The translations under genes and the position numbers were made by a program. Source: a virus. Taken from it: 64,000 nt of DNA. The DNA lies in the IMG/VR virus record IMGVR_UViG_3300033148_008025, positions 1-64,000 of that record; one strand, written 5' to 3'. Within the stretch, counting starts at the first letter, position 1; each line of letters opens with the position of its first letter. Below the pieces are notes generated by a model that was not told the DNA's origin, made no database searches, and saw nothing but the letters and a program-made list of their open reading frames with translations. Below, one piece after another: positions 33,792-48,253 of this stretch.

Positions 33792-35027
33792 ATGAACCAT
33801 TTCCTATCTGGCTTCACCGATGAATTGGTGAAGATCGCAGTAGACAGAGAGTCTGGAAAAGGAAACGGGCTTGGCCTCCTGGAGGCCGGGATGGTGGCAT
33901 CGACAATTGCTCCATTTATGGGGCTCATCGGAGAAGAGAAGATTCTCCACGACCCACATGTGCAGAAAAGCATCATGAGGTTTACCTCACTGGAATCCCT
34001 CGAGCGTCACGCAAGGCCTGGAGATATTGTCCTGATGAGCGGGCCCAGAGATCCTACCAGGCCTGTTACCACCGCAATATCCGGAACAGACTGGTCTCAT
34101 GCACAGCCGGTCGTTGGCGTTCGAGACGGAAAGGCCGTAACCCTCAGCGCAGGTCGATTCAACAGAAGAGATGTGAAGGTAAAAACTCGTGCAGATTTCA
34201 TGAAGATGGCTCCAACGCTGGCCAAAGATATGAAGTCATGGGGATATACCGATGCAGTAATTCTTCGTCCAAAAAACAAGATGAGCAATACAGACTTAAA
34301 GAAGTTTGTTGACGAGGTCGTCGATCGGTCGCGTATGCCGTGGGATGCAAAGAAAGCAGTTAGCGGGGTTGCTAAAGATCTGTTTATTCCAAAGCGAATG
34401 GTTTCAGAAGGGGCTCTTAAAAAAATAGAAGGTCAGACGATGATTCGCTATGGGAACATTGTAGATCCTGTTTCCGGCAAGAAGGTTCGAGTCCCAATGA
34501 CGTGCAAGGGAAACACCTGTTCGGGCTTAAGTGCACAGGCAGCTAGAATTGCTGGCGGTGGAGCAATCCTAGGCAGCAAGCTCCCAGCAGATATATTGCC
34601 AGCAGACTTCGTTCGTTCGAAACAGTATCGTCCAGTAGGCGCAGTGATTAACAAAAGCAAGCTTCCAGTAAAAATCCTTCCATACCTAACCCGAGCGGGA
34701 GTGGGTACCGCTGCCGCCGGAGGCATCTACGCAGCCCATGAGCGACCGGAACTGTTGGCAGCAGGAGTAGGAGCAGCGGGAGGATCTGCGCTCCAGGGGG
34801 CGTTGACAAGGCGGATAGGAAAGGCAATGGGGCTATCCTACGGACAGACAAGTCGTAAGATTCCAAATCTGATGAGATCAGTGCAAAAAACAGTGTCCTC
34901 ACCCACGACCATTGGCAGGGTAAGCCCAATCTTAAAATATCTAGCAATGGCAACTCCGATGAGAGTTCTTGGCGGGCTAGCTGCCCTCAAGGTGGGCCGG
35001 GTAGCGCTTGGCCGAGAAGGAGAATAG
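33792..35027 (+). CDS. Permuted papain-fold (YiiX/NlpC-like) protein with N-terminal GFxDELxKxA motif
   Basis: 411 residues from MNHFLSGFTDELVKIAVDRE. The enzyme-like domain has PGDIVLMSG (residues about 77-85), the His strand GTDWSHAQPVVGV (about 101-113) and the later Cys segment KGNTCSGLSAQAARIAGG. That gives the order GDI ... H ... CS expected for circularly permuted papain-like hydrolases/amidases of the YiiX group, which cut amide or thioester bonds. C-terminal third has Gly/Ala-rich segments (AGVGTAAAGGIYA, AGVGAAGGSALQGA). The N-terminal motif recurs in three other proteins here. No clear Shine-Dalgarno before this ATG. First gene of the operon. Confidence 0.75.
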   Translation: MNHFLSGFTDELVKIAVDRESGKGNGLGLLEAGMVASTIAPFMGLIGEEKILHDPHVQKSIMRFTSLESLERHARPGDIVLMSGPRDPTRPVTTAISGTDWSHAQPVVGVRDGKAVTLSAGRFNRRDVKVKTRADFMKMAPTLAKDMKSWGYTDAVILRPKNKMSNTDLKKFVDEVVDRSRMPWDAKKAVSGVAKDLFIPKRMVSEGALKKIEGQTMIRYGNIVDPVSGKKVRVPMTCKGNTCSGLSAQAARIAGGGAILGSKLPADILPADFVRSKQYRPVGAVINKSKLPVKILPYLTRAGVGTAAAGGIYAAHERPELLAAGVGAAGGSALQGALTRRIGKAMGLSYGQTSRKIPNLMRSVQKTVSSPTTIGRVSPILKYLAMATPMRVLGGLAALKVGRVALGREGE

Positions 35028-35029
35028 GC

Positions 35030-37129
35030 ATGAACGGCATCCTTACAGGCTTCATAGATGAACTGACAAAGGTATCATCCCAAAAAGAGAAAGAAGCGCC
35101 ACTATACGAAGCAATCATGCGTCCAGGCGAACATGGTCGCGTTAGTATGAAACCGGCTGGTGCAGCACTCGGTGGAACAGTTGGAGCCCTGCTTGGAGAT
35201 TTTGCATCAAAGCGTGCAAGACTTGGCAGCAAATCCAGTATTGGAACAAAGCTTATTCGCGGTAGTGGTATTGCAGGCTTACTGGCTGGAGCCTTGCTTG
35301 CGCCAGGCGGAAAGAAGTCAAAGAAACGATCCGTCGACCTGATTCCGTCGAATCGCGCAGCAAGGGAGATTGCTGCAAAGTCAAAATCACACGAAAAGAA
35401 AGCTGCAGCAAAAACCCACCTAACGCCAGACTCATCCAACATTAACGGTTTCAGCTATGACCCCAGAGCTAAGCAGCTGACCGTGACGTTCAAGGGCGGA
35501 TCGACGTACAGATACAGGGGTGTACCGCAAGCCACCTTTCGCTCACTCAGGCGAAACAAGAGCGCCGGCAAGACACTTAACCGTCTCGTCAAAGCCAGGG
35601 ACTACGAGTACGAGAAGATTGCCAAGAAGAAAAAGCAGAAGTCCTACAAGTGCAAGTTCTGTAAGGACCAAGCTACCAAGGGCGTCATATGGGCCGAAGG
35701 CCGCGGCATCGTTCCCTGCTGTGATAAGCATCTTGGCAAAGGCAAATCTTCTATTGATGATCCGAAAGACATCGACCTGATTCGGGACCTGACAAAGCAG
35801 GCTGGATCTAAATTCACCACCTTCCTTCGGACAGCTCCAGAAGAAAAGCTTTTGGCAGCCCTCGAGAATGTTGTCGGATCTGCCAGGCCAACCTATTACA
35901 AGTCCCTCGATATTACGAAGTTCATGAACTATCTCAGGGGTGGCGGTGACAAGTTTGCTCCGAGCATTTCTTCGATGAAGAGAGATGAATTGGTTAAGGC
36001 CGTTCGCCAGCGACTCGCCGCAGGGTTTCCGAAACAGAGGCTTCGGCATACGAAGGATGGCGATGTTGAATTTGGGCGTAGTCTGAAGGAACGTGCGGGA
36101 TCTAAGATGATCCGAGTTAGTCATGGTGGAAGCGCATCCGAGCTTGAGTCGATCATCAAGTATGGTCCCAACGCGGCGGTTCCTGTTGTCCCCGGTGCGG
36201 CTGGAAAAAAAGAAGTTGTCGGACTTTTTGTTCATAAACCCTCCGATGTTTTAGCGGAACGTCTTCCAGGATACGCCAAGAGGCGGGTGGCCTACGCCGG
36301 AGGAAAACCCGCAGTTCTTAGTTTTGATATCCCAGAGAGATTGATTTCTGAGGGGGGGCGAATTGGGGGTGGTGAACATATAGTTCCGGCAAGCCTTTGG
36401 CGGTACGCGAAGAACACAAAGATCACCAAAGTAGGAGGCTCCTTGCTTGAAAAGACTTCTTCAGATGCACAGCGAGCATTCTACGCTTCAACCAGCATCT
36501 CCCCCTACTACGCCAAAAGGCAGCGCGACAAGCGCAAGCAGCAGGAGATCAATCGCCTGTTGAAGAAAGCAGGCTTCTTGCGCGAGCGCGTCCGCGAAGG
36601 TAACTCGAGTGATCTTATTGGTCGCATGACGAAAAAACGCCGTCAAATCGAGAAGATAGCCGGTGCGTGCGTGAAGACTCTTACCTGGGGAGGACTCACG
36701 ATGAAGTTTGAGTACCTCAAGGATGACATCAGGTCTGGTACCGGGGAAGGCGGAAAGAAGTGGTCTCGTAAAATGAAGGACTGCTATGGATACATTCCCA
36801 ACACCTACGGCAAGGGCGCAGATGGGGAAGCCATTGACGTCTACTTCCAGCCCGATCCGACTGACGGCCCGGTCTTCAAGATCCGTCAGCTAAAAAAAGA
36901 GGGTGGCTATGACGAGGACAAGTTTATGGTCGGGTATGGAACATCCAAGGCGGCAAAAGCAGCCTTCGACAGGAACATGCCAGCATGGGCCTTTGGTGAT
37001 ATCACCAGTCTATCAATGAAAAGTTTTCGAACACTTGTAGGCCAAAGCGGCAGCAAGATTCGTGTACCATCAGACAGCAACGCCGAGCGCGAGCGGGTTC
37101 GCCGGGCCATGGAAAGAAAATCAGCATGA
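35030..37129 (+). CDS. Multidomain KTSC / zinc / ART-like / pyrophosphatase-like protein, 699 aa
   Basis: MNGILTGFIDELTKVSSQKE. In order: GFxDELxK motif (8-14); Gly/Ala segments (43-54, 75-88); KTSC domain about 135-200 (INGFSYDPRAKQLTVTFKGG ... YRYRGVP ... SAGKTLN); a CKFC ... CC-x2-H zinc site; an ADP-ribosyltransferase-like stretch near 360-440 (RVSHGGSASELESIIKYGP ... GLFVHKP ... VLSFDIPERLI); a basic linker; and a C-terminal InPase-like domain of phage type (CYGYIPNTYGKGADGEAIDV ... VGYGTSKAA) near 575-640. Looks like a virion-carried polyprotein or toolbox of host-acting domains; the ART assignment is the weakest. Confidence 0.75.
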   Translation: MNGILTGFIDELTKVSSQKEKEAPLYEAIMRPGEHGRVSMKPAGAALGGTVGALLGDFASKRARLGSKSSIGTKLIRGSGIAGLLAGALLAPGGKKSKKRSVDLIPSNRAAREIAAKSKSHEKKAAAKTHLTPDSSNINGFSYDPRAKQLTVTFKGGSTYRYRGVPQATFRSLRRNKSAGKTLNRLVKARDYEYEKIAKKKKQKSYKCKFCKDQATKGVIWAEGRGIVPCCDKHLGKGKSSIDDPKDIDLIRDLTKQAGSKFTTFLRTAPEEKLLAALENVVGSARPTYYKSLDITKFMNYLRGGGDKFAPSISSMKRDELVKAVRQRLAAGFPKQRLRHTKDGDVEFGRSLKERAGSKMIRVSHGGSASELESIIKYGPNAAVPVVPGAAGKKEVVGLFVHKPSDVLAERLPGYAKRRVAYAGGKPAVLSFDIPERLISEGGRIGGGEHIVPASLWRYAKNTKITKVGGSLLEKTSSDAQRAFYASTSISPYYAKRQRDKRKQQEINRLLKKAGFLRERVREGNSSDLIGRMTKKRRQIEKIAGACVKTLTWGGLTMKFEYLKDDIRSGTGEGGKKWSRKMKDCYGYIPNTYGKGADGEAIDVYFQPDPTDGPVFKIRQLKKEGGYDEDKFMVGYGTSKAAKAAFDRNMPAWAFGDITSLSMKSFRTLVGQSGSKIRVPSDSNAERERVRRAMERKSA

Positions 37130-37806
37130 GTTACAATTTTTTGAACGGTTTCGTCGACGAGCTCACAAAGACCGCGGGTCCAACCGACCTGGCCAAGCCT
37201 CCCGGGCAGACCATGGAGGTGAAGATTCCTAAGCCCCCCAAGCCACTCCAGGCGCCCAAGCCGGCTACCATGGAGAGCAAACCTGCCGCCGTTCTTCCCA
37301 AGACTGCAGGTGTGAAAGACATGCTTGGCACCATGGGCTCCGCAGTCAAGAAGATGGTGACTAGCGATAAGGCTGTTCGTGCCAAGGTGAAAGCTGGGGA
37401 CTTGGCAGCCAAGGCAAAGTTTCACGGAGCCAAGGCCAAAGGAAGAGGGCAAGACCTTGCCGGAAAAGCTAAGGCATATGCTTCGACAAAGGGCCACCAG
37501 TGGAATGCACTTTCTCCTGCAGAGAAGAAGCGCTACATGGCTATCGCCGGTGCCGGAACGGCCGCCGGTGTTGCTGCTGGGGCCGGTGCATCGAAGCTTG
37601 CTGGCGAAGATAAGGCTGGCGCAATGATCAAGGAAGTGCTTGAAAACGCCAAAGGGAAAAATCGTCCTGAGTCCAAGTCCGGCGATTCCGTTGGGGGCGA
37701 GTACGGTGCGGGTGGGGGTCTTTCAAACTTTGAAGGCAAGACTGCTCCAAAGTTCAACAAGAAGTACAATCCCACCGACATGCCTCAGGCGTTCGGAAAG
37801 CGATAG
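37126..37806 (+). CDS. Lys/Ala/Pro-rich protein with N-terminal GFxDELxKxA motif, 226 aa
   Basis: MSYNFLNGFVDELTKTAGPT, then a Pro/Lys linker (KIPKPPKPLQAPKP), a basic Ala/Lys helix-forming centre (AAKAKFHGAKAKGRG), the glycine-rich segment IAGAGTAAGVAAGAGASKLA, and a disordered tail. Very basic and low complexity, like internal virion or DNA-binding proteins. ATGA overlap with the preceding gene. No enzyme motif. Confidence 0.65.
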   Translation: MSYNFLNGFVDELTKTAGPTDLAKPPGQTMEVKIPKPPKPLQAPKPATMESKPAAVLPKTAGVKDMLGTMGSAVKKMVTSDKAVRAKVKAGDLAAKAKFHGAKAKGRGQDLAGKAKAYASTKGHQWNALSPAEKKRYMAIAGAGTAAGVAAGAGASKLAGEDKAGAMIKEVLENAKGKNRPESKSGDSVGGEYGAGGGLSNFEGKTAPKFNKKYNPTDMPQAFGKR

Positions 37807-37811
37807 CACTT

Positions 37812-38438
37812 ATGATTTTCAGAGTGCTCAGGATCGTAGTGATCCTCCTGATTGCCGCTGGTGGAATCCTTGGAATCTACAGCATGCATCACAGGGAAAC
37901 CCTACATGAGCCAACGTGGGATGAGAGGGGAATTGCTGTCGAGCACAGGAGGGGAGATATTCCTCTTTCCGTTTTCGTTGATCGAAGCTTTGGAGGCGAC
38001 CACGTAGCAAGCGCAGAGAGAGCGATTTCCAGTATCAACCGTGATGCCGGATGTACTCTTATGAGCCCAATCTATCTGCTGGACAATGCTGATATCCATA
38101 TTCGCCATGAGGCTTGCGATGAGGGTTCGGAGTTTCAGCCAAATCACCCAGGCTGCACCTGGTCAAATCCTTCCAGGGAGCGCACGATTATCCAGGTTGG
38201 ACAACCAGGTAATACGACAACATCGTACTTAATCTTCTACCACGAACTCACACATGCCATAGGCTTGGCTCACGACGGCGTATATGTCGTCCCAGGGCGA
38301 GGAGATGAATCCTTGATGTTTGTCCCGATCACTGCCAACAACGCCCACGAGCACAGCTACAGGCTTGGTATAGGGAAGCATCTGCCTTCCATGTCTGACA
38401 AAGATCGAAGCGTGCTGAAACAGCGATACTGTGAGTAG
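37812..38438 (+). CDS. Membrane-anchored metzincin metallopeptidase, 208 aa
   Basis: MIFRVLRIVVILLIAAGGIL is a signal anchor (residues 1-22), so the rest should lie outside the cytoplasmic membrane. HELTHAIGLAH (residues 144-154) is the full metzincin zinc motif HExxHxxGxxH with catalytic Glu145. SLMFVPI about 15 residues later may form the Met-turn. Resembles matrixin/astacin-type peptidases. Possible roles are cutting envelope proteins at entry or release. Last gene of the cargo operon, without the DELxK motif. Confidence 0.8.
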   Translation: MIFRVLRIVVILLIAAGGILGIYSMHHRETLHEPTWDERGIAVEHRRGDIPLSVFVDRSFGGDHVASAERAISSINRDAGCTLMSPIYLLDNADIHIRHEACDEGSEFQPNHPGCTWSNPSRERTIIQVGQPGNTTTSYLIFYHELTHAIGLAHDGVYVVPGRGDESLMFVPITANNAHEHSYRLGIGKHLPSMSDKDRSVLKQRYCE

Positions 38439-38440
38439 CT

Positions 38441-38488
38441 AAAAAAAGACCCATCTTCGCAGAGGTTCCACGCAGTGCGAAGAGGGTC
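38441..38488 (-). terminator. Intrinsic terminator for the leftward 38.5-39.4 kb unit
   Basis: Minus strand GACCC-T-CTTCGCA ... TGCGAAG-AT-GGGTC followed by TTTTTTT. Long stem with one bulge and a 14-base loop. It lies in the convergent space after the metzincin gene and may also slow rightward transcription. Confidence 0.75.
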
Positions 38489-38511
38489 AAAGCTGACATC
38501 ACTGCCAGCTA

Positions 38512-38742
38512 TTAGTAGATAGCGACGGCGACGCCCGCTCCAAGTGTAACAAGGTCTTCAGCAAGGTAGTGGCCTTTGCCTTTGACGAAGTACTTTACGT
38601 GGTCTGGGACGACGACTTCCTTGTTTCCGATTCCGAATACGAGGAATCCCTCGCTGAGGTGAAACCCTTTCTCGGGGTCTTTGTCGGCCCCAACTTCTAG
38701 AAGGAACTTTGCTACGGTTTCAGTATCTCCAATCCAGCTCAT
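38512..38742 (-). CDS. Small hypothetical protein, 76 aa
   Basis: MSWIGDTETVAKFLLEVGAD; contains EKGFHLSEGFLVFGIGNKEV and VPDHVKYFVKGKGHYLAED. GGGAG upstream, ATGA overlap. Unrecognised; cotranscribed with GrpE. Confidence 0.6.
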   Translation of the reverse strand: MSWIGDTETVAKFLLEVGADKDPEKGFHLSEGFLVFGIGNKEVVVPDHVKYFVKGKGHYLAEDLVTLGAGVAVAIY

Positions 38743-38987
38743 TGATGGGGTCTCCCGTGTTTTGTTTCGAGCCTGTGAATACACTCACGCAATGCATCTT
38801 CCGGCTCTTTGTGTTCATTTCTTGAATAGTCGTAAACCCGATCTGGTCCGAGTTTGATGACGCATCGCTCTATTCCGGTTCTATCTAGAACCTCAGAGAT
38901 GATGTTTACTGGCGTGTCTTTACTTACACTCAGATCGAGATAGACGAGTTCACGCAGCTCTCTGATGCACTGGTTGTAGTCAAGCAT
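38739..38987 (-). CDS. Hypothetical protein, 82 aa
   Basis: MLDYNQCIRELRELVYLDLS; alpha/beta, acidic. Overlaps the end of the GrpE gene by eight bases and couples to the next gene. Unrecognised. Confidence 0.6.
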   Translation of the reverse strand: MLDYNQCIRELRELVYLDLSVSKDTPVNIISEVLDRTGIERCVIKLGPDRVYDYSRNEHKEPEDALRECIHRLETKHGRPHQ

Positions 38988-39426
38988 CTACCATCTCAGG
39001 GCTGATCGCTACGGCAACTTGCGCAGGGCGTAGCAACTTCCCCTTTCGGGTGTACCCTTGCCTAACTTGGCCGGCAACGTGGTGGTGTGGGATTTCTGCA
39101 GATGGGACCTCTGCAACTGCTTCCATTGTCTGTGGATCGAATGGCATTCCTTCCGCTGGTACGGCCTGGATGCCAATTTCTAGCAGTTTATGAATGAGAT
39201 GGCCTAGTGCCATGTCAATCCCACGTATCGCATCTTTCTTCCTAATGCCCTTCTGCTTTAGGCTGTTTGTTGCTCGAGCAAAATCATCAATTGCATCCAG
39301 CAGGAGACAGGCAATGTTTTCCTCCCCCTGCTCCCTTGCTCTCGACACGGCTACTGCCGTTTGCTTTCTCATGTTTTCGATTTGAGCAAGCGCTCGCTTG
39401 TACCGATCTTCTTCTTCGTTAGTCAC
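38980..39426 (-). CDS. grpE: GrpE-like nucleotide exchange factor, 148 aa
   Basis: GTG start (VTNEEEDRYKRALAQIEN) with AGGAG six bases upstream. The protein has the GrpE plan: a helical dimerisation stalk (residues 1-60), a four-helix part (ENIACLLLDAIDDFARATNS, LGHLIHKLLEIGIQAVPAEG) and the beta-domain motif PFDPQTMEAVAEVPS ... GQVRQGYTRKGKLLRPAQV. GrpE releases ADP from DnaK. Slightly short at the N-terminus. A phage copy could redirect host DnaK towards virion assembly or replication. No dnaK or dnaJ here. Confidence 0.88.
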   Translation of the reverse strand: MTNEEEDRYKRALAQIENMRKQTAVAVSRAREQGEENIACLLLDAIDDFARATNSLKQKGIRKKDAIRGIDMALGHLIHKLLEIGIQAVPAEGMPFDPQTMEAVAEVPSAEIPHHHVAGQVRQGYTRKGKLLRPAQVAVAISPEMVDA

Positions 39427-39477
39427 AGTAAACTCCTGTGTGTTTTGTGGTGGCGACTCCACTACCTTCAAGAAAGT

Positions 39478-39507
39478 GGGGGACAGCGCAACAAGGCACT
39501 GTCCCCC
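39478..39507. other. Inverted repeat (9-bp stem, 12-base loop)
   Basis: GGGGGACAG and CTGTCCCCC around 12 bases, in the space upstream of grpE and downstream of the terminator at 39.57 kb. No U-tract. Possible operator, transcript-stabilising or processing hairpin. Confidence 0.55.
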
Positions 39508-39566
39508 GGGTTTCCCAGAGGAGGAGTCCAAGCCACCGCCAAGGTCTAAAATAAATCTGAGTGAAC

Positions 39567-39603
39567 AAAAAGGTGGCCCCGACACATTCGTGTCGAGACC
39601 ACC
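39567..39603 (-). terminator. Intrinsic terminator
   Basis: Minus strand GGTGGTCTCGACAC-GAAT-GTGTCGGGGCCACC followed by TTTTTGTT. A long stem with an internal mismatch. It ends the one-gene unit of the 83-residue membrane protein. Confidence 0.8.
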
Positions 39604-39610
39604 TGAGTCC

Positions 39611-39862
39611 CTAGGATGGGAGGGTTTCTTCTTTTGCTGCCTCAGTGGCAGGGAGTGTGATTTGCTTCTTGAGCTCAGACACTTCCTCCTGCAGTTTTGG
39701 GATGCAGACGTTCTCGGCTTTCAGCTCGATCAGGCCAGACTCAAGAAACTCAACCTTTTCGTTGAGCTCTTTCACCTTACGCCCGCGGAGGATTATTCCT
39801 CCAAGTGTTCCAGCCACGAAGCCAGCTGCAGCAGTAATTCCAGTTTTGATAATATCGGTCAT
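39611..39862 (-). CDS. Small membrane protein with coiled coil, 83 aa
   Basis: MTDIIKTGITAAAGFVAGTL followed by GGIILRGR: one N-terminal span, then a coil (VKELNEKVEFLESGLIELKA, VSELKKQITL). GGAGTCCAAT before the ATG. A complete unit with its own GGCATAAGG element and terminator. A holin or spanin-like lysis role is possible from topology but unproven. Confidence 0.65.
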   Translation of the reverse strand: MTDIIKTGITAAAGFVAGTLGGIILRGRKVKELNEKVEFLESGLIELKAENVCIPKLQEEVSELKKQITLPATEAAKEETLPS

Positions 39863-39905
39863 ATTGGACTCCAATTCTGAGTAGGGGTGATTCCCTCTCT
39901 ACAGT

Positions 39906-39914
39906 CCTTATGCC
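39906..39914 (-). promoter_or_regulatory. GGCATAAGG promoter-like element
   Basis: Exact copy 43 bases before the 39862 start. Lies between this gene and the end of the next leftward unit (39937), where a new transcript must begin. Confidence 0.55.
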
Positions 39915-39936
39915 CGATAGGCTGCTGTGCCTGGCT

Positions 39937-40509
39937 TTATTTCAGGGCCCATGCCGTGTCTGCCACTCCAGTTTTCAGCCAGAGTTCACCCGTGCCAGCG
40001 TTGTCTCTTGAGCCAAGAGAGCCGATTGGTGCAGCTACTCCGGTTACGCTTGGGTCCGTTGTTAGCAGGTATGGGAGTCTTCGATTTGCTGCACGCATCC
40101 AATCCGTCTGTGCCCTGTGCCAGCCTTTCGTGTTTCCATTGGCGTTGGACTCAGTCTCTTCGCCGTAGCCAGAAATTCTCGCAGCCGTGTTTGGCATTGG
40201 TAGCGAAACCCGAATGTTCTGCTCGTACATGCCGTTGGCAACGCTTGCTCGAACAACGATAGTTCCAGATTCCGCATCCGCATCCGATGGAACTGTCATC
40301 GTCGGTGTTGCGGTGGTTGGGTTGATGAGGGATACCGACGAATCGAGCGGTGACTCGTCGATAAACCATTCGTAGTCTTCTTCTGAGTTTTCAGGGGCAG
40401 TGTCTACGAAGGAAAGCACCTCTCCCTCGACCAGGTCGTCTTTGTCAACGCCATCCAGCTCAGGGCCAGAAGTGCTTCCTGTTACCTGTATGACTGGCTG
40501 TGCTGGCAT
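39937..40509 (-). CDS. Stand-alone fibre N-terminal module, 190 aa
   Basis: MPAQPVIQVTGSTSGPELDG. Along its whole length it aligns with the first ~190 residues of the giant fibre (41426-46642): VDKDDLVEGEV/VDKVNLIAGEV, the Ig-like middle, the identical segment GEETESNANGNTKGWH, and GSLGSRDNAGTGELWLKTG/GSIGQRDNAGVGELWQKTG. It stops where the fibre goes on, so it is a duplicated attachment module: a second short fibre, a cap or an adaptor. Confidence 0.7.
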   Translation of the reverse strand: MPAQPVIQVTGSTSGPELDGVDKDDLVEGEVLSFVDTAPENSEEDYEWFIDESPLDSSVSLINPTTATPTMTVPSDADAESGTIVVRASVANGMYEQNIRVSLPMPNTAARISGYGEETESNANGNTKGWHRAQTDWMRAANRRLPYLLTTDPSVTGVAAPIGSLGSRDNAGTGELWLKTGVADTAWALK

Positions 40510-40515
40510 GGCTGA

Positions 40516-41004
40516 CTAGTTCTGAGCTTGATCTGCGCTTGCAGCTTTTTTGTTTGCAGCTTTTTGTGTTGCAACCCTCTTCGCCTTGCTCGGCTTCTTT
40601 TCTTTGAGGTCGACAACCAGCTCGATGAATGGCATGAACTGCATTGCAATAAATCCATCCCGATAGAGAGGCTGCGATGGGTTCTTGATGACATCGACAA
40701 GAAGCTTCCAATCGCTCTCGTCAAGAATCACCACGGCTCCAGCCTTCGCTCCCTTGCACGCTTTTGTGATTCTAGTGATTTGCTCCCAGGACTCAAATCC
40801 TTCATTGAACTTTTTGTCACGAAGGGCAAACGTCCTGATCCAACTCCAAAATGTTTCCGGATCTGCATCTCGAAAGATGGGACTTGCTCCAGCCTGCATT
40901 TCTGCTTGGCTTGGCTGTGTCTTCTTGTCATCAAGAGCCTGAATCGGCTTGTCGTTGTCGTCGAGAAGGACGATTGGTTCTGGGATGGTGAGATATCTTG
41001 GCAT
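40516..41004 (-). CDS. Hypothetical protein, likely virion-associated, 162 aa
   Basis: MPRYLTIPEPIVLLDDNDKP; helical middle (DKKFNEGFESWEQITRITKA, DESDWKLLVDVIK) and a Lys/Ala-rich tail. Sits between the two fibre-module genes. A tail or chaperone role is inferred from context only. AGAGGA before the ATG. Confidence 0.6.
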   Translation of the reverse strand: MPRYLTIPEPIVLLDDNDKPIQALDDKKTQPSQAEMQAGASPIFRDADPETFWSWIRTFALRDKKFNEGFESWEQITRITKACKGAKAGAVVILDESDWKLLVDVIKNPSQPLYRDGFIAMQFMPFIELVVDLKEKKPSKAKRVATQKAANKKAASADQAQN

Positions 41005-41030
41005 TTGATGTTTTCCTCTGATTGGGATTT

Positions 41031-41061
41031 GTGCGGGTACTATGTTTTGCAGTACCCGCAC
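41031..41061. other. Perfect inverted repeat (10-bp stem, 11-base loop)
   Basis: GTGCGGGTAC and GTACCCGCAC flank 11 bases in the 72-base space between two leftward genes. GC-rich, no U-tract. Could trim or protect the fibre-operon transcript. Confidence 0.6.
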
Positions 41062-41076
41062 AGCATCATACACATT

Positions 41077-41406
41077 TTAGAGTCCGAGGACAGCCTTCCC
41101 GTCATCGTGGATGCGCTTAAGTACGGGGAAAATCTTGTCCTCATCTCCTGCAACAAGGCCAGAGTGGCCATCCATGACTGCGGTCCACTCGGTCCACCGG
41201 ACCCCACCAGATTTTCCATCCGCCCTTATCACAGGAATACCTCGTCGAACAAAGGTTTGCTCTTTGACTGTAGGGCTGCCTGGGATAGCAGGGGGTAAGC
41301 CGATCACGTCTTCATGATCGGATGGGAGTACAAGGAACTCAATGCGGGTTCCCGCGGAGACGTTTCCGTCTGTCATTTCATTTGCTGATTCGCCTGCGAT
41401 TGCCAT
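41077..41406 (-). CDS. Hypothetical protein, likely virion-associated, 109 aa
   Basis: MAIAGESANEMTDGNVSAGT; contains FLVLPSDHEDVIGLPPAIPG and EQTFVRRGIPVIRADGKSGG: beta-rich, like a small virion protein. Directly follows the fibre gene in the same direction. Confidence 0.6.
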   Translation of the reverse strand: MAIAGESANEMTDGNVSAGTRIEFLVLPSDHEDVIGLPPAIPGSPTVKEQTFVRRGIPVIRADGKSGGVRWTEWTAVMDGHSGLVAGDEDKIFPVLKRIHDDGKAVLGL

Positions 41407-41425
41407 TTGTTTTTCTTTCCGTTGG

Positions 41426-44400
41426 TTAACACTCGACGCCGAGTGTTGCAAAAACTTTACGAGAACCCGAGTACGACCCGTTAAACAGTGCTCTGATTCT
41501 AACAAGGTCGCCCTTGCTCGCTGCGTCTGTATCCTTGGCTTGCGATGCGTAGTTCACTCGGTCTGTCGGTGCCGTGGTGTTCAGCACTGTTGCTGGGCTA
41601 CCGGACGAGCCCCAAGCATCGCTCCAAGAAGAACCTTCGTCATCTGAGGTCTGCACCCAGAAACTCACCTGTCCCGTACCTAGTGCTGTCTCAGCCCACA
41701 CTGAAATCTCGACGATGGAACCATCACGCGGCATAACAAACCAACCGTAGGAGTCGTCGCCTACTGTGGTCGAGCCATCAAACCGCATAGTATATGTATT
41801 GGACGCTGCTGGGCTGGTTAGATACACAAGAGGCAGAGTTCTTCTGAAGCCTCCTAGCGCGTCGATGTCGAGCGATGCAGTGAGACTGGAGCAAGTAACA
41901 GCGCCACCACACGTTATGGCATCTACGTATAGTCGTTGCCAACGATAAGACGCGTGACCTAGTAACCTAGAACTGTCGGTGCTGGGCCTTACGTCACAGT
42001 TGAAGTGTGCGCCAGAAGAAGTACCGTAGGGAGACTTGAAGGTCAACATCGTTGACCAACCCGTGCTGTCCTGCGTAGCTATCTCAAAGCTTGAATCGAA
42101 CGAAGCTTCTGATTGACTGCCTGCTTTCGCCTGCATAGACCAATTGAACGTACGTAGTGCATCTCCGTACACTGAGCCTTGCCACAGCAATGCCGGTGAG
42201 TCTTGTTCGCCATAGGTCACGTCTGCGTCGGTAGAGTTAGCTAACTCAAGACCTGCAACGTTATGGTCGACTGAAGGACTCGCGTCCCGAACATCGTTGC
42301 GGTAAATCGAGGAGACAGGAACGCCTGTGCCGTTAGATGTCCAACGCTGACGTTCAGTACCACTTGCTGTAACTGCCATCACGCTACCACCAGGGAAGAA
42401 GACCCCTGTATCAGCGTCTGAGTTATTCCTAATCCCTGGAACACTTTCTGTGCCTGTTATCACGGAGAGAGGCACGTAGACCGACAGGATGGTGTTCTTC
42501 AGGTACATCCGACGAGTACCACCAGTCCAGAACTCTAGCTGATCGTCTAGTGGCGCAGTGATGTACGTGTCGCTGGCGTCGAAGTACGTAGCTTGACCTA
42601 AGCCACCGTAGGTGTTCGCAGCGTTGTACATGTGCTGAGAACCGTCCCAGCGACAAGCCTCTAAGAGAGCTGTGGATACTGCAATCTCGGAGTTCGCAGG
42701 GCGGAAGAGTCCTGAGTTGTTGTCGTTCAGGCGTAGTGCAGGAACGGCTGCGTTGTCACCGAAGCCAGACGTTATGTTGATGTCATGAAAACCAATCCCA
42801 AGCCTGTGCCTCTGGGAAGATGCAGAGTATATGTAGAGCACGTCACCCGCACCGTGGTGGATGTAGTCACCCGACGCAACGGGGCCAAAGTATATCCTCG
42901 GATTAGAATTATTGGGTCCTATGTTGATGTCTCCATCCGAGTAAACCTTGAGGACGTCTTCGTATGCTCCACCATCGAGGCTACTCTTTAAGACAAGTTC
43001 TGATGTGGGAGTTGCAGCGTCCTCGACAGTCTCAAGTTGGAAAGCCATCTTGGCTTCTTGGGACTCTACACCCGTGAGGCGTGTCTGCCCTTCGAAGACG
43101 AGCATGGGTGAGTACTGGACGACACCATCTGCTGCATCTTGCAGGTTGAGAAGCTCTACACTGTGAGTCTCTGCCGTTCCGATGTTGTCGTATCGGCCTC
43201 GAAGTTGCCGCCCGAAGACTGTGCTCCATTGCCTGGTCGCACCTCCAAGATTCTTGGTGTTATCTGTGCTCGGCCTAAACGTTGTCGTGACATCGGTATT
43301 GCTCGAACCAAGATTGAGAATCTTGACGCCTAGGTATGCCAGTGAAAGCCCCCCAGCGTCGAGGTAGGTTCCGCTCGTGACGTCGCTTGCGTAGCTGTAG
43401 CTCGGGGCTCCTACTAACCCGTCTGGTACAAGAGTTTGCTGGGATGCGTTCCAGCGCATGGCTTCTAAGCCTGCTGTCGAAATACCGACCTCAGATGCAG
43501 CTGGGCGAAAGACACCTGAGTTTGTGTCAGAGAGCCTAATCGCAGGAGCAGCAGCCGAGCTACCTGCTGTATTTATCTCGTAATAACCTGCGCCGAATTT
43601 GTGCCATTGCCCTGAACCCATGCTGAGTGCCATATAGTTCGACGACGACATGGTGATGTAGTTCGTGGAGCTGTTCGTACCCATGCGAATTCGCGCAGTG
43701 GCACTAACCGGGTTGACCACAAGGTCTCCACCTGACTGAATGACTAAGCGGTCGTCGTATGCTGCGCCGTCTATGCTGCTCTTGAACACAAGGTCGCCAG
43801 TGGGCGGACCTGCCTGTTCTTCCGTGCGAGTCTGCATGGCAAACGCAACGTACTTTGAGCCAACAGCAACAGAGTCATAACCCATCCCCGCCAGCCTAAT
43901 CATGGCGCTGTATTGCTGCGTGCCGCCTCCAATGGCCCCGCTTGAGTTGACAAGGTTGTAGCCTACGCTTTCACCTTCGCCGACGTTCGTGCTGTAGTGT
44001 GTGTGTGTGGCCGCGTTGTAGATATGGCGTGCTCCACCAGCAATGATGAACTGCACGTTGTCATCGGCAGACGCTTTGAACATTGTGTCGCCATCGTCGT
44101 CCAACACAAGTCCCTGACCTGTGCCAAGAACAACGTCACCCGAAAAGGTCGCGTCTAGAGAGGCGTCTAGCAGCAGAGCCTGAGTTCCTCCTGTTGCAAA
44201 GCCTAGAGTGTCTGGGGCTCCAGCGTTCCCCCAGAAGACCCCGGTGTCTACGTCTCCTTGTGATGCTAGTTGCAGTACCGAAGCCGAACCTGAAGCGCTA
44301 GCAGTTCGAATTACGCCGCCACGCAGGAACATGGAGGAGGTCCCGTTGACTACAAATCCCACGGTACCCGCAGCAACTAGGTACATTCCTGATGTTGTCT

Positions 44401-46642
44401 GTGCGCTGAAAGAGTATGTAGGAGCACCAGACGTGCCGCTGCCTAACTGGTGCGGGTCTGGGTGCGTGCCGCCTACGCCTAGCTGAGTCGATACACCAAG
44501 CCCGTCGATGAACCAGAGCGTCTGGTCGTTCTTTGCCCAGACTTGACCGTAACCAGCGTTGCTCGCTGTTGCTGCTGCGCGTTCTTGCAGCTCAAGAGTA
44601 TTACTAATGCGCATCACTGTTGTAGACATGCGCATCTGCTCTGCACCGCCTACAGCAAACTTGAGATAGGTGGCGTCTCCGTACATCCCGCTGCCTAGGT
44701 TGGAGCTGAGCGCTAGCGAGGGCGCTGTTGCGAGACCATCTGGAATGACGCTCTGCTGAGATGCGTTCCAGTGCATCGCTGCTGTCGCTGCTGTGGCTAC
44801 ACCTATTGAATCCGCTGCGAGCCGATAGAACCCAGATGTGAGACTCTGGTTCCAAGTAAACGCAGGCGTTGCAGCGCTACCGTTTACGTTAGAGGCTGTC
44901 TGACTAGGGAGAATTCGTAGCGTGGCTGTCGTAGATGCTACAAGCATCAATGAGTGTCCTACGCCTTTGCATATACCCGTAAGTGTAGAGCCGCTGAAGG
45001 CTAGGGAGGGCACCGCTGCGGAGCCGTCAGGTATAATGGTCTGTTGATTCTCGTTCCACCTCATCGCCTCCACACCTGCCGTGGTGACAGCTGCATGGCC
45101 AACAGTGTCGAAAAAGAATCCCGAATCCGCGTCGTCATTGTTCCTAATGCCTGGTGCTAAAGCCGTGCCTGGTATCGGTGACATCGGAACACTCATCGAC
45201 AGGATGGCACCAGTGAGCCGCATACGCCTACCACTCGATGCGTGGAAGTCCATCGTGTCGTCTACGCTGGCGTGTATGTACGTGTCATCGTCATCGTCAA
45301 GAATAAGACGTTGGCCAATGCCCATGCCAACGTTGGCTTTCACAAGCATGTTTTGCGAAGCGTCCAGACGCATCGCTTCTGCTCCAGCCGTAGCAAAACC
45401 CAGAACGTCCGGGTCACCCGAATTACCCCAGAATGTCCCAGTATTCGCGTCGCCCTGAGAACTTAGGTGTAGATTGACTGCGTCACCTGAACCACCTACT
45501 ACGCGAATCTCGCCAGGCACAAGGTGCATTGCTGCACTGCCTTGAACCGTAAATGACATCTGACCAGCAGCCGAGAGGTATCTACCCGTGTTAGTTTCCG
45601 AGGTATAGCTCGACGAAGGCGCGGTCACCGTCCCATCCACTAGGCGCAAGTTTTTGTTCACCTGGACACGCGACGTAGACATGGAAATGATGGACTGTCC
45701 ACCAGCAACCATGCGTGTCTCGCTTGACACGTAGTACATCCCGTAACCAGTTGCCCCCACAAAGGAGTAGGCCGGTGCGCCGGCAGTAGTACTCCCAGCC
45801 CCCAGGGCCTGCCCGGCATCCCATTCAATGGCAGCTCCACTGCCACTGTTTGCAATAGCCAGTGCAGAATCGTTGGCATTTGCACCCATGATAAGGCTGA
45901 GTGCGTTTCCGGAATTTGCCACCGAAACTGGTGCCTTAGTCAGGCTTAGGACATTGTTTCCATCGTCAAGAGCCCTGCTAATAGCCACAGGGCCACTCGC
46001 AGACGTTATGATGGTCGGCCCTCCGTCGTAGGCCTCCTGCAGGTTGCTGACGCCACCACCTCCACCGCCACCAACGAGGGCCCAGGCAGTATCCCCTCCT
46101 CCGGTTTTCTGCCAGAGCTCTCCTACGCCAGCATTGTCTCTTTGGCCAATCGATCCGATCGGCGCTTCTAGTCCTCCACCCGCGCTCGGATCAGCAGACA
46201 GCAAGTACGCAAGCCGTGCGTTCGCTGCTCGCATCCATTCGGTCTGAGACTTGTGCCATCCCTTCGTGTTGCCATTGGCGTTGGATTCAGTCTCTTCGCC
46301 GAAGTGCGGGATCCTCGTCCCAGTATTCGGCTGCGGCAGCGAGATCCTGATTGTGCTCAGGTAGACACCGTTGACAACTCCGCGAAGAAGGACTGTTCCA
46401 GACCCAGTCGCTGCATCTGCTGGAACCACAAAGCTTGGGCTTGCTGTTCCAGCATTGATGAGTGAAATCGAGGTATCTATCGGTGTGTCATCAAGAAACC
46501 ACTGATAGGATTGCCCAGAGTTTGAAGCCTCAGAATCCACAATGGTGACTACTTCACCGGCAATAAGGTTGACCTTATCAACACCAGGAATGCCAGCTCC
46601 TGAGGAAGATCCTGTTGCCTGAATGATTGGATTAGCTGCCAC
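41426..46642 (-). CDS. Giant repetitive tail fibre / receptor-binding protein, about 1738 aa
   Basis: GTG start chosen by alignment with the 190-residue module protein (VAANPIIQATG / MPAQPVIQVTG); a TTG at 46699 would add 19 residues. Residues 1-190 are the attachment module. Then come eight or more imperfect repeats of roughly 75-110 residues built around E-A-M-R-W-N-x-S-Q-Q-x-x-x-P-D-G, IRNNDADSGFFF, SDTNSGVFRPAASEVGIST and similar beta-rich blocks, as in trimeric fibre shafts. The C-terminal ~110 residues (VSFWVQTSDDEGSSWSDAWG ... KVFATLGVEC) look like a globular tip. No S74-type chaperone domain seen. Confidence 0.8.
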   Translation of the reverse strand: MAANPIIQATGSSSGAGIPGVDKVNLIAGEVVTIVDSEASNSGQSYQWFLDDTPIDTSISLINAGTASPSFVVPADAATGSGTVLLRGVVNGVYLSTIRISLPQPNTGTRIPHFGEETESNANGNTKGWHKSQTEWMRAANARLAYLLSADPSAGGGLEAPIGSIGQRDNAGVGELWQKTGGGDTAWALVGGGGGGGVSNLQEAYDGGPTIITSASGPVAISRALDDGNNVLSLTKAPVSVANSGNALSLIMGANANDSALAIANSGSGAAIEWDAGQALGAGSTTAGAPAYSFVGATGYGMYYVSSETRMVAGGQSIISMSTSRVQVNKNLRLVDGTVTAPSSSYTSETNTGRYLSAAGQMSFTVQGSAAMHLVPGEIRVVGGSGDAVNLHLSSQGDANTGTFWGNSGDPDVLGFATAGAEAMRLDASQNMLVKANVGMGIGQRLILDDDDDTYIHASVDDTMDFHASSGRRMRLTGAILSMSVPMSPIPGTALAPGIRNNDDADSGFFFDTVGHAAVTTAGVEAMRWNENQQTIIPDGSAAVPSLAFSGSTLTGICKGVGHSLMLVASTTATLRILPSQTASNVNGSAATPAFTWNQSLTSGFYRLAADSIGVATAATAAMHWNASQQSVIPDGLATAPSLALSSNLGSGMYGDATYLKFAVGGAEQMRMSTTVMRISNTLELQERAAATASNAGYGQVWAKNDQTLWFIDGLGVSTQLGVGGTHPDPHQLGSGTSGAPTYSFSAQTTSGMYLVAAGTVGFVVNGTSSMFLRGGVIRTASASGSASVLQLASQGDVDTGVFWGNAGAPDTLGFATGGTQALLLDASLDATFSGDVVLGTGQGLVLDDDGDTMFKASADDNVQFIIAGGARHIYNAATHTHYSTNVGEGESVGYNLVNSSGAIGGGTQQYSAMIRLAGMGYDSVAVGSKYVAFAMQTRTEEQAGPPTGDLVFKSSIDGAAYDDRLVIQSGGDLVVNPVSATARIRMGTNSSTNYITMSSSNYMALSMGSGQWHKFGAGYYEINTAGSSAAAPAIRLSDTNSGVFRPAASEVGISTAGLEAMRWNASQQTLVPDGLVGAPSYSYASDVTSGTYLDAGGLSLAYLGVKILNLGSSNTDVTTTFRPSTDNTKNLGGATRQWSTVFGRQLRGRYDNIGTAETHSVELLNLQDAADGVVQYSPMLVFEGQTRLTGVESQEAKMAFQLETVEDAATPTSELVLKSSLDGGAYEDVLKVYSDGDINIGPNNSNPRIYFGPVASGDYIHHGAGDVLYIYSASSQRHRLGIGFHDINITSGFGDNAAVPALRLNDNNSGLFRPANSEIAVSTALLEACRWDGSQHMYNAANTYGGLGQATYFDASDTYITAPLDDQLEFWTGGTRRMYLKNTILSVYVPLSVITGTESVPGIRNNSDADTGVFFPGGSVMAVTASGTERQRWTSNGTGVPVSSIYRNDVRDASPSVDHNVAGLELANSTDADVTYGEQDSPALLWQGSVYGDALRTFNWSMQAKAGSQSEASFDSSFEIATQDSTGWSTMLTFKSPYGTSSGAHFNCDVRPSTDSSRLLGHASYRWQRLYVDAITCGGAVTCSSLTASLDIDALGGFRRTLPLVYLTSPAASNTYTMRFDGSTTVGDDSYGWFVMPRDGSIVEISVWAETALGTGQVSFWVQTSDDEGSSWSDAWGSSGSPATVLNTTAPTDRVNYASQAKDTDAASKGDLVRIRALFNGSYSGSRKVFATLGVEC

Positions 46643-46752
46643 GGTGAAACCATTGTACAAGGATTGGAAGAGATAGTGCAGTCCCTGGAATTGTGCCAAC
46701 TTTACACCGATCTGACAGACCAGTAGCTAAAAATAGTTTTTGATGCCTTTCT

Positions 46753-46783
46753 CCCAGAAATCACGCTGAGCGTGATTCCTGGG
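46753..46783. other. Near-perfect hairpin (14-bp stem, 3-base loop)
   Basis: CCCAG-A-AATCACGC / GCGTGATT-C-CTGGG with a single A.C mismatch, between the divergent fibre gene and the small rightward gene at 46797. No U-tract follows. Either a symmetrical operator for a dimeric regulator or a transcript-boundary hairpin. Confidence 0.6.
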
Positions 46784-46796
46784 ATAAGATGCCCTA

Positions 46797-46982
46797 GTGT
46801 TTAGGTCTCTACAGTGCTGGGTACTTGGCCATCGCTGGCGAGTCATGCTCCTGTCTGAAAGACATGAGCGAATGGTGGATGTGCATCCCATGGCTGGAAC
46901 TCTCGCTCACTGCATGAGATGCAGTCTTGTCTGGGATGACATTCCTAGATCTCCCCAAAAATCGACAACTGCCCACCAGTAG
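46797..46982 (+). CDS. Small Cys/His protein (DUF1660-like), 61 aa
   Basis: GTG start (VFRSLQCWVLGHRWRVM). C-W-x-x-GH-x-W ... HCMRC matches the short phage zinc proteins with a C-x4-GH ... C-x2-C site, similar to DUF1660. Convergent overlap of 38 bases with the methyltransferase gene. No strong Shine-Dalgarno. Confidence 0.5.
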   Translation: MFRSLQCWVLGHRWRVMLLSERHERMVDVHPMAGTLAHCMRCSLVWDDIPRSPQKSTTAHQ

Positions 46983-47568
46983 GCTTTTCCAGCATAAACG
47001 TCATGCCAAACCTTCTTCCTTTCAGGGAATCCTTTGGCCACATGTACCAGCAGTATTCGCTGCTATCCTTCTTGCCGTCAGGTCTAAATGATGGCCTCCA
47101 TGGGAGTTGGCCTTTGTCTGGACAGTATTTCGTGAGCCATGGTCCGCGGCCCGCTCCACCAGAAAACCATCCCTGCGCCTGAAGGCAGACAACTATCCGA
47201 GCCCGCAACAGGGCGACTTGCACAAACTGCATTGTTAGACTGAACGGTGGATTCATGATCAGGACGTCGGCCATCGGGATTTCCCATTCCCTGTGAACGA
47301 AGTCCCCATAGGGGAGAATAATGTCTGACTTCCTCTGAAGGTCGCGCAGATACGGATCGAACTCATTATTGAGTTCGCACATGATCCACTTAACGTCTTT
47401 CCTCCTTTCGTTTACTGCGGAGATCATCCTTCCGGTTCCTGCGCACGGCTCGATCCACGTCCCACCCGGCAGCGTGACAAGATCGCTTTCAAGCAGTGAG
47501 TAGACTACTTCCCTTTCTGTTGGGTAGAACTCGTTTTCTTCTACCTTGCGCTTACCCTTCTTACTCAT
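46945..47568 (-). CDS. DNA adenine methyltransferase-like protein, 207 aa
   Basis: MSKKGKRKVEENEFYPTERE. SAM-binding motif I WIEPCAGTGRMISAV and catalytic motif IV NPPF in VLIMNPPFSLTMQF place it with amino-methyltransferases. The FYPTE opening (usually 'FYPTP') is typical of phage Dam-like enzymes. Short C-terminal part, no separate target-recognition domain visible. A role in protecting phage DNA or timing is inferred. No cognate restriction gene nearby. Confidence 0.8.
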   Translation of the reverse strand: MSKKGKRKVEENEFYPTEREVVYSLLESDLVTLPGGTWIEPCAGTGRMISAVNERRKDVKWIMCELNNEFDPYLRDLQRKSDIILPYGDFVHREWEIPMADVLIMNPPFSLTMQFVQVALLRARIVVCLQAQGWFSGGAGRGPWLTKYCPDKGQLPWRPSFRPDGKKDSSEYCWYMWPKDSLKGRRFGMTFMLEKPTGGQLSIFGEI

Positions 47569-47824
47569 CGATATCGACGTCTGGCTCTATGTCGAAAACA
47601 GGCTCTCTCGAGGAGAACTTAGCAACCTGGAATTTCATTCCAGATTCCCTTGATCCTGCTTTGGCCAGCGTGGCGATTGTTTTCAGTCGCCCTTCACCGC
47701 CAATAAGCGGTTCCATGATCTTGGTTACTGGGTTAACCGCTGATGCGATTCCCTCGTTTCCATTATTGTCACGCCCGAGGACGACGTAGAGTTCAGTGAT
47801 TGTCGAAGGTGTTGTTTCTTTCAT
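47561..47824 (-). CDS. Hypothetical protein, 87 aa
   Basis: MKETTPSTITELYVVLGRDN; beta-rich start and acidic end (DIEPDVDIDE). AGGAAA upstream. Overlaps the methyltransferase start. Unrecognised. Confidence 0.6.
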   Translation of the reverse strand: MKETTPSTITELYVVLGRDNNGNEGIASAVNPVTKIMEPLIGGEGRLKTIATLAKAGSRESGMKFQVAKFSSREPVFDIEPDVDIDE

Positions 47825-47875
47825 CGTATTTCCTGGCCATTCTAGGCCTATGTTTGACTATGATACGCTCGGTGC

Positions 47876-48253
47876 ATGACTTCGCACCTTATGATTGGTT
47901 TTACTGATGAGCTTGTGAAGACTGCCGGAAAGACTTCTCTTTTTACGAAAGCACTAAGGCTTGCAGCGAAGACCGAAAAAGGGAAAACCAAAGCCGGCAA
48001 AAAGGTTATTTCCCGTTTAGCCAAAACGCAATCGAAGACGAAGCACGCCCTCAAAGACCCGGAGTATCGGAAAAGGATTGCCGCTGGCGCTACCCTTGGA
48101 GCTGGAACGGGCGCAGCCACGGCAGTGGCTGGCGGAGGTGATGACTCTGTACTAAAAAGGGCTCTCAAAGGAGCTGGAACGGGTGCGGTGGGTGGAACCA
48201 TCACCGGAGCTGCATTCCCGGGCTGGTTCGCTAGGTCTAATCGCCACCTCTAG
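47876..48253 (+). CDS. Basic protein with N-terminal GFxDELxKxA motif, 125 aa
   Basis: MTSHLMIGFTDELVKTAGKT opens with the same motif as three proteins at 33.8-37.8 kb. It is followed by a Lys-rich helical part (EKGKTKAGKKVISRLAKTQS) and Gly/Ala-rich segments (AAGATLGAGTGAATAVAGG, GAGTGAVGGTITGAAF). Predicted small basic virion cargo. It stands alone on the plus strand between leftward genes; no Shine-Dalgarno, upstream GATACGCTC resembling the GATACGGTC before 33792. Confidence 0.65.
   Translation: MTSHLMIGFTDELVKTAGKTSLFTKALRLAAKTEKGKTKAGKKVISRLAKTQSKTKHALKDPEYRKRIAAGATLGAGTGAATAVAGGGDDSVLKRALKGAGTGAVGGTITGAAFPGWFARSNRHL

Follow-up and report, generated by a model that had tools for sequence, protein, structure and literature searches.

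A short N-terminal peptide shared by unrelated proteins of a viral genome, a probable capsid-targeting and maturation tag

The 64 kb of DNA analysed here (the window) form the start of a viral record of 121,454 nt, IMG/VR IMGVR_UViG_3300033148_008025 (record label G000). Four of its genes, at 33792, 35030, 37126 and 47876, encode proteins that begin in frame with one short peptide, GF-x-DEL-x-K-x-A, referred to below as the tag (Table 1). For the first gene, the open reading frame (ORF) caller had placed the start upstream at TTG 33714; the tag follows ATG 33792, which was taken as the start.

Table 1. Coordinates of the tags, tagged proteins and internal sites in the window.
Feature	Position	Strand	Remarks
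N-terminal tag MNHFLSGFTDELVKIA	33792..33839	+	In-frame translation; DNA pattern, 9 matches against 0 in the control; blind clustering
N-terminal tag MNGILTGFIDELTKVS	35030..35077	+	Translation, DNA pattern, blind clustering
N-terminal tag MSYNFLNGFVDELTKTA	37126..37176	+	Translation, DNA pattern, blind clustering
N-terminal tag MTSHLMIGFTDELVKTA	47876..47926	+	Translation, DNA pattern, blind clustering
Tagged 411-residue protein	33792..35027	+	Papain-like motifs (unconfirmed); C-terminal Gly/Ala-rich stretch
Tagged 699-residue polyvalent-type protein	35030..37129	+	KTSC, Cys-rich segment, ART-like stretch (by eye), InPase
Tagged 226-residue Lys/Ala-rich protein	37126..37806	+	Glycine-zipper-like stretch
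Tagged 125-residue basic protein	47876..48253	+	Glycine-zipper-like stretch; weak Gly-zipper Pfam match (E 0.024)
Phi-x-K-x-A site YEKIA	35609..35623	+	In the 35030 protein, directly after KTSC
Phi-x-K-x-A site LTKQA	35789..35803	+	In the 35030 protein
Overlapping Phi-x-K-x-A-type sites LLKKAG	36557..36574	+	In the 35030 protein
Phi-x-K-x-A site IEKIA	36647..36661	+	In the 35030 protein, directly before InPase

A degenerate DNA pattern for F-x-D-E-L-x-K matched nine times in the complete record and not at all in the reversed control; at the protein level there were 11 matches, where reversed proteins gave one and shuffled ones 0.7 on average. Within each genome all N-termini were also compared blindly, pairs being scored only if their bodies were unrelated and shuffled N-termini serving as control; the top cluster in this record consisted of the same tagged genes. 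The copies use different synonymous codons while keeping the residues, and past the tag the bodies show no convincing homology (best pairwise E 0.003, from Gly/Ala-rich stretches), which together argue that the peptide itself is conserved. An earlier note, made from the sequence alone, had described one motif on four unrelated bodies with Gly/Ala zipper-like stretches; each of these points held, the stretches being present in all four proteins. No near-identical DNA was found in named phages, and a search for a shared promoter upstream of the tagged genes gave isolated 11-base words with a mismatch and no common motif.

The protein at 35030 was confirmed by Pfam as the KTSC/InPase multidomain protein that the earlier note had proposed (KTSC at residues 134–190, E 9.5e-14; InPase at residues 549–668, E 1.3e-29). 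Its PHROG matches were minor head protein and others, and InPase relatives were present in 415 phage records, many under the names minor head protein or DarB-like. It unites several conflict-type domains in one phage protein, as polyvalent proteins do, and a survey of such proteins reports InPase domains mainly in phage polyvalent proteins that are likely packaged in virions (PMC5512222). The papain fold proposed for the 33792 protein was not confirmed: the motifs PGDIVL, SHA and CSGL are present and a tagged protein of another phage gave a weak pairwise match (E 0.011), while Pfam and PHROG searches gave no match and the AlphaFold2 model was poor. Models of the 33792 and 35030 proteins, computed without an alignment, reached predicted local distance difference test (pLDDT) values of 38 and 40, respectively, and were dropped for fold searches. 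Relatives of these two proteins were sought in viral contigs and none were found.

Beyond the window, the tag segment marks a head-assembly cluster at 107.9–118.4 kb. Further N-terminal copies were located at 107893 (minus strand), 110598 and 115189, and internal copies in 114811 (EEEDAAGRIMARGFADELTKIAG), 117650 (EYDSAGRIMARGFYDEFMKLAG) and 113113. Three of the proteins concerned flank the protease-like product of 115873 (114811 and 115189 before it, the scaffold-like 117650 after it), which matched the head maturation protease PHROG (E 1.5e-6) and is similar to the annotated prohead protease of phage E3. Homology to Salmonella phage Arash and to gp27 of Bacillus phage G identifies the product of 120321 as the major capsid protein, and the product of 83115 is portal-like. 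Upstream of the copy in 113113 lie an internal ATG (113626) and, before it, GGAGAGG, which may mark a second start, as has been reported for T4 gp21. An ORF resembling a peptidase, whose last third contains the tag straight after an internal Met, was seen both here (113113–113931) and in a second genome (G002, 63946–64797).

The end of the tag, Phi-x-K-x-A (Phi being L, F, I, M, V or Y), recurs in the head genes at large. When gapped triples were ranked with a correction for composition and without a preset motif, L.K.A came first in this whole genome and third in G011. In nine phages, Phi-x-K-x-A occurred 331 times within 7 kb of the protease against 82 expected (4-fold), and at 1.08 times expectation beyond 40 kb. 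No excess remained when R, E or D replaced K, when G or S replaced A, or when a polar residue took the first position; altered spacings still gave 1.2–1.7 times, and Phi-x-K-x-S in the head module about 0.9 times. At 37 capsid-gene loci, of which three came from records in the earlier counts, the site was enriched 3.8–4.6-fold over the 8 kb preceding the capsid gene and 1.5-fold after it. The major capsid proteins (66 distinct proteins and the query) have K25 in 67 of 67 and A27 in 66 of 67; the capsid protein of Arash has QGLVKEA. In the proteases the sites cluster near residue 28 and at residues 214–250, two regions that border the catalytic core, with others nearer the C-terminus. Applied to T4 as a control, the same calculation returned that phage's own site, [LI]-x-E-[AGS], at 22 against 8.6 expected in head genes and 90 against 80.9 elsewhere, and showed no enrichment of Phi-x-K-x-A. 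Given the head-module enrichment, the capsid K-x-A, the sites flanking the protease core and the T4 control, Phi-x-K-x-A is probably where the prohead protease of this family cuts.

Relatives were gathered by the protease and by a capsid-protein profile, the latter gave 511 stretches of viral contigs encoding such a protein, and the best 80 of them were retained. The F-x-D-E-L-x-K DNA pattern was matched 37 times against 0 in the control in 18 records, and 47 times against 2 in 34 others, counts that include some near-duplicate records. The first 31 residues, 12.8% of all residues, held 56 of 102 distinct protein matches (p about 5e-24), an N-terminal bias. The last residue of the tags was A, G or S in 70, 26 and 21 of 117, respectively. 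Two unrelated proteins, L234:8924–9811 and G039 95486–97057, have a short leader domain, MPF-K/R-S-x-AQRR, before the tag.

The blind comparison found one dominant tag per genome in each of several genomes. The GF-x-DEL-x-K-x-A type was that of the present record (8 ORFs) and of G039; the others were AF-I-DEL-x-K-I-A/S (G007, G004), FW-x-GF-x-K-x-A (G029, 8 ORFs), F-xx-GF-x-K-x-A (G032, 20 ORFs), NKYLEKIA (G011, 7 ORFs) and MLK-x-AY-xx-G (G010). When tag ORFs were counted by regular expression in G032, G029, G011 and G000, reversed proteins gave 0 in each; as the expressions were written after the clusters had been seen, the fairer test is the blind clustering. Phi-x-K-x-A is contained in nearly all of these tags, the last residue being sometimes S, G or T. 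The tag thus differs from lineage to lineage, but almost every one ends in the common head-module site.

Tagged bodies include the KTSC/InPase protein described above, zinc-peptidase-like proteins and glycine-zipper proteins. A NUDIX protein (G029:83951, E 5.8e-18) is tagged at both ends, a tagged ART-like protein was found in G007 (weak match), and G010:118081 joins an ART-like N-terminus (by eye) to NUDIX. At L231:3951–4484 the lineage tags on the two ends of a NUDIX protein read MRDFWEGFQKRA and AFWRGFRKGAA. An ATP-dependent DNA ligase is tagged in G032, G011 and G039; homologous ligases in three phages begin MSFTSGFSKHA, MMSGFVEEFTKIS and MNKYLTKLA, each being its own genome's tag type, and another homologue, in G005, begins MFLRKLAEQ. 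That homologous ligases bear the tag of their own genome is the strongest sign that the tag belongs to the assembly machinery of the phage and not to the cargo.

In the 35030 protein, Phi-x-K-x-A sites at residues 194, 254, 510 and 540 lie outside KTSC and InPase, and one at residue 593 lies inside InPase. Internal K-x-A was considered as a general cargo feature and rejected; the 35030 protein alone stands out (5 against 2.0), so the idea that its inter-domain sites, if cut, would permit release of single domains is only a suggestion. Directly behind the tagged operon, the product of 37812–38438 (plus strand) has an N-terminal hydrophobic stretch and a zinc-peptidase-like motif, HELTHAIGLAHD, with weak Pfam peptidase matches. 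The proteins encoded at 39937–40509 and 41426–46699 (both minus strand) share a similar N-terminal region (IQxTGSxSGxxxxGVDK), the latter product having 1757 residues and a tail-fibre-like appearance. Beyond the window, 87570–93800 (plus strand) encodes a 2076-residue protein matching RNA polymerase beta subunit families, possibly a fused phage RNA polymerase.

By analogy with the capsid-targeting sequence (CTS) of T4, the shared N-terminus is read as a capsid-targeting and maturation tag, to which we give a probability of roughly 75%. The tag would form a short amphipathic helix, of hydrophobic residues and G/A/S-F-x-D-E-L, running into Phi-x-K-x-[A/G/S]. Inside the forming prohead this helix would dock its bearer on a partner, which could be the scaffold or core, the protease or the inner face of the capsid; the related segment of the scaffold-like 117650 presumably acts in the same way. 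Next, the prohead protease 115873 would probably cut at or beside K-x-A, freeing the cargo inside the head, and the cargo would exit with the DNA at infection. We infer encapsidation, docking, cleavage, ejection and host action alike. The earlier note had proposed a virion-sorting signal of the T4 kind, and this is supported in part. Such a signal agrees well with the evidence: the motif lies in head-assembly genes and contains the head-module K-x-A, and the tags of other lineages sit on comparable cargo. It is one of several lineage-specific tags and not one fixed motif, it also occurs inside head proteins, and a test on the protein labels of Arash was negative.

Several observations weigh against a targeting and maturation tag. 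The blind comparison gave no tag cluster in D69, Arash, G014 and G045. Among Arash proteins outside the head and tail modules, those labelled structural (labels of proteomic style) had N-terminal K-x-[AGS] in 4 of 23 cases against 26 of 168 (p 0.5), a weak test since Arash is without a tag cluster. The capsid protein of phage G is without K-x-A and was dropped as an experimental anchor, the ligase homologue G007:56285 is untagged, and one tag-like N-terminus (68193) lies among tail genes. In the literature, no virion proteomics or N-terminal sequencing of a tagged phage was found. Head sites end strictly in A, but tags in A, G or S, and the tag end may therefore escape the cut proposed for the head-module sites.

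This tolerance of G and S would suit a docking helix for scaffold, portal or capsid that is never cleaved, the dispersed K-x-A being binding and not cutting sites; F-x-D-E is moreover more constrained than a protease site requires, and a helix was predicted at residues 2–16 in both of the poor models (33792 and 35030). We consider docking alone unlikely, because K-x-A flanks the protease core and occupies capsid residues 25–27, places where maturation cuts are expected, because the known T4 cleavage site is similarly enriched in its head module, and because the tags of other lineages have little in common with this one beyond Phi-x-K-x-A. That last property also bears on a role in the host cell, as a helix binding a membrane or host factor or as a localisation signal of early left-genome proteins: a host-side signal needs no link to K-x-A, and the motif is also present in the scaffold-like protein and beside the protease. 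Three of the four window genes do lie in an operon distant from the head genes, amid minus-strand genes, and the tagged proteins have Gly/Ala-rich, membrane-like stretches, but a host-cell role seems quite improbable. Runs of adjacent tagged genes in some genomes (G007, G004, G032) would be expected if gene duplication or recombination had spread one 5' end as a functionless relic. Such an origin is very improbable, as the copies differ at synonymous sites with residues kept, the bodies are unrelated and the tags differ by lineage on homologous cargo.

Taking the targeting and maturation tag as the preferred reading, we lean towards a modular address system for virion cargo, in which a lineage's own N-terminal peptide is combined with a common K-x-A maturation site and homologous effectors are re-addressed on moving between lineages, so that the genome of a phage could reveal its virion cargo. 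The system would extend across a phage family whose capsid-gene relatives number in the hundreds among the viral contigs searched. Virion-internal proteins are normally learned only from proteomics of cultured phages, and the tagged phages are large and mostly uncultured; with an address readable from sequence, many unknown ORFs would become predicted virion cargo, candidates for counter-defence and takeover. It would also predict a new prohead protease specificity, K-x-A, and supply new tags for loading proteins into phage heads. Tag and partner would need to change together between lineages, which would make the evolution of cargo targeting testable.

A literature search, incomplete in coverage, found no description of these tags. 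The survey of polyvalent proteins, in the part available, describes domains and no shared targeting tag (PMC5512222); the domain arrangements it treats resemble KTSC, InPase and the ART-like stretch in 35030 and ART-like plus NUDIX in G010:118081. In P1, the first 30 residues of DarB are enough to bring a reporter into the head, and the cargo is an anti-restriction polyvalent protein; its authors found no consensus among Dar N-termini, whereas here the consensus is plain (PMC9024508). In SPN3US, propeptides undergo cleavage at several A-X-E sites (PMC10052503); SPN3US and phiKZ resemble the present family in having many internal proteins, several sites per propeptide and sites in the protease itself (PMC10052503, PMC9026906), but are cut after A-X-E or S/A-X-E in place of the proposed K-x-A. 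With the T4 CTS there is no sequence relation: T4 has MKTYQEFIAEA, cut after E, and its consensus L/I-x-E-A is replaced in these tags by L-x-K-x-A. Packaging and cleavage are demonstrated in T4 and predicted for the present tags; here the tag also varies by lineage and occurs on up to 20 proteins per genome. Ten residues of the T4 CTS suffice for both targeting and processing, and it is likewise a short N-terminal peptide on unrelated internal proteins and Alt that includes the prohead protease site (PMC9026906). Alt is processed at both ends, a likeness to the doubly tagged NUDIX protein G029:83951, and T4 has a related peptide on its scaffold (MLKEQLIAEA) as the scaffold-like 117650 has the tag segment. 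As in T4, a short N-terminal peptide is common to otherwise unrelated proteins, and the same peptide or site is found in scaffold- or core-type proteins with a prohead protease nearby (117650, 114811, 115873, 120321).

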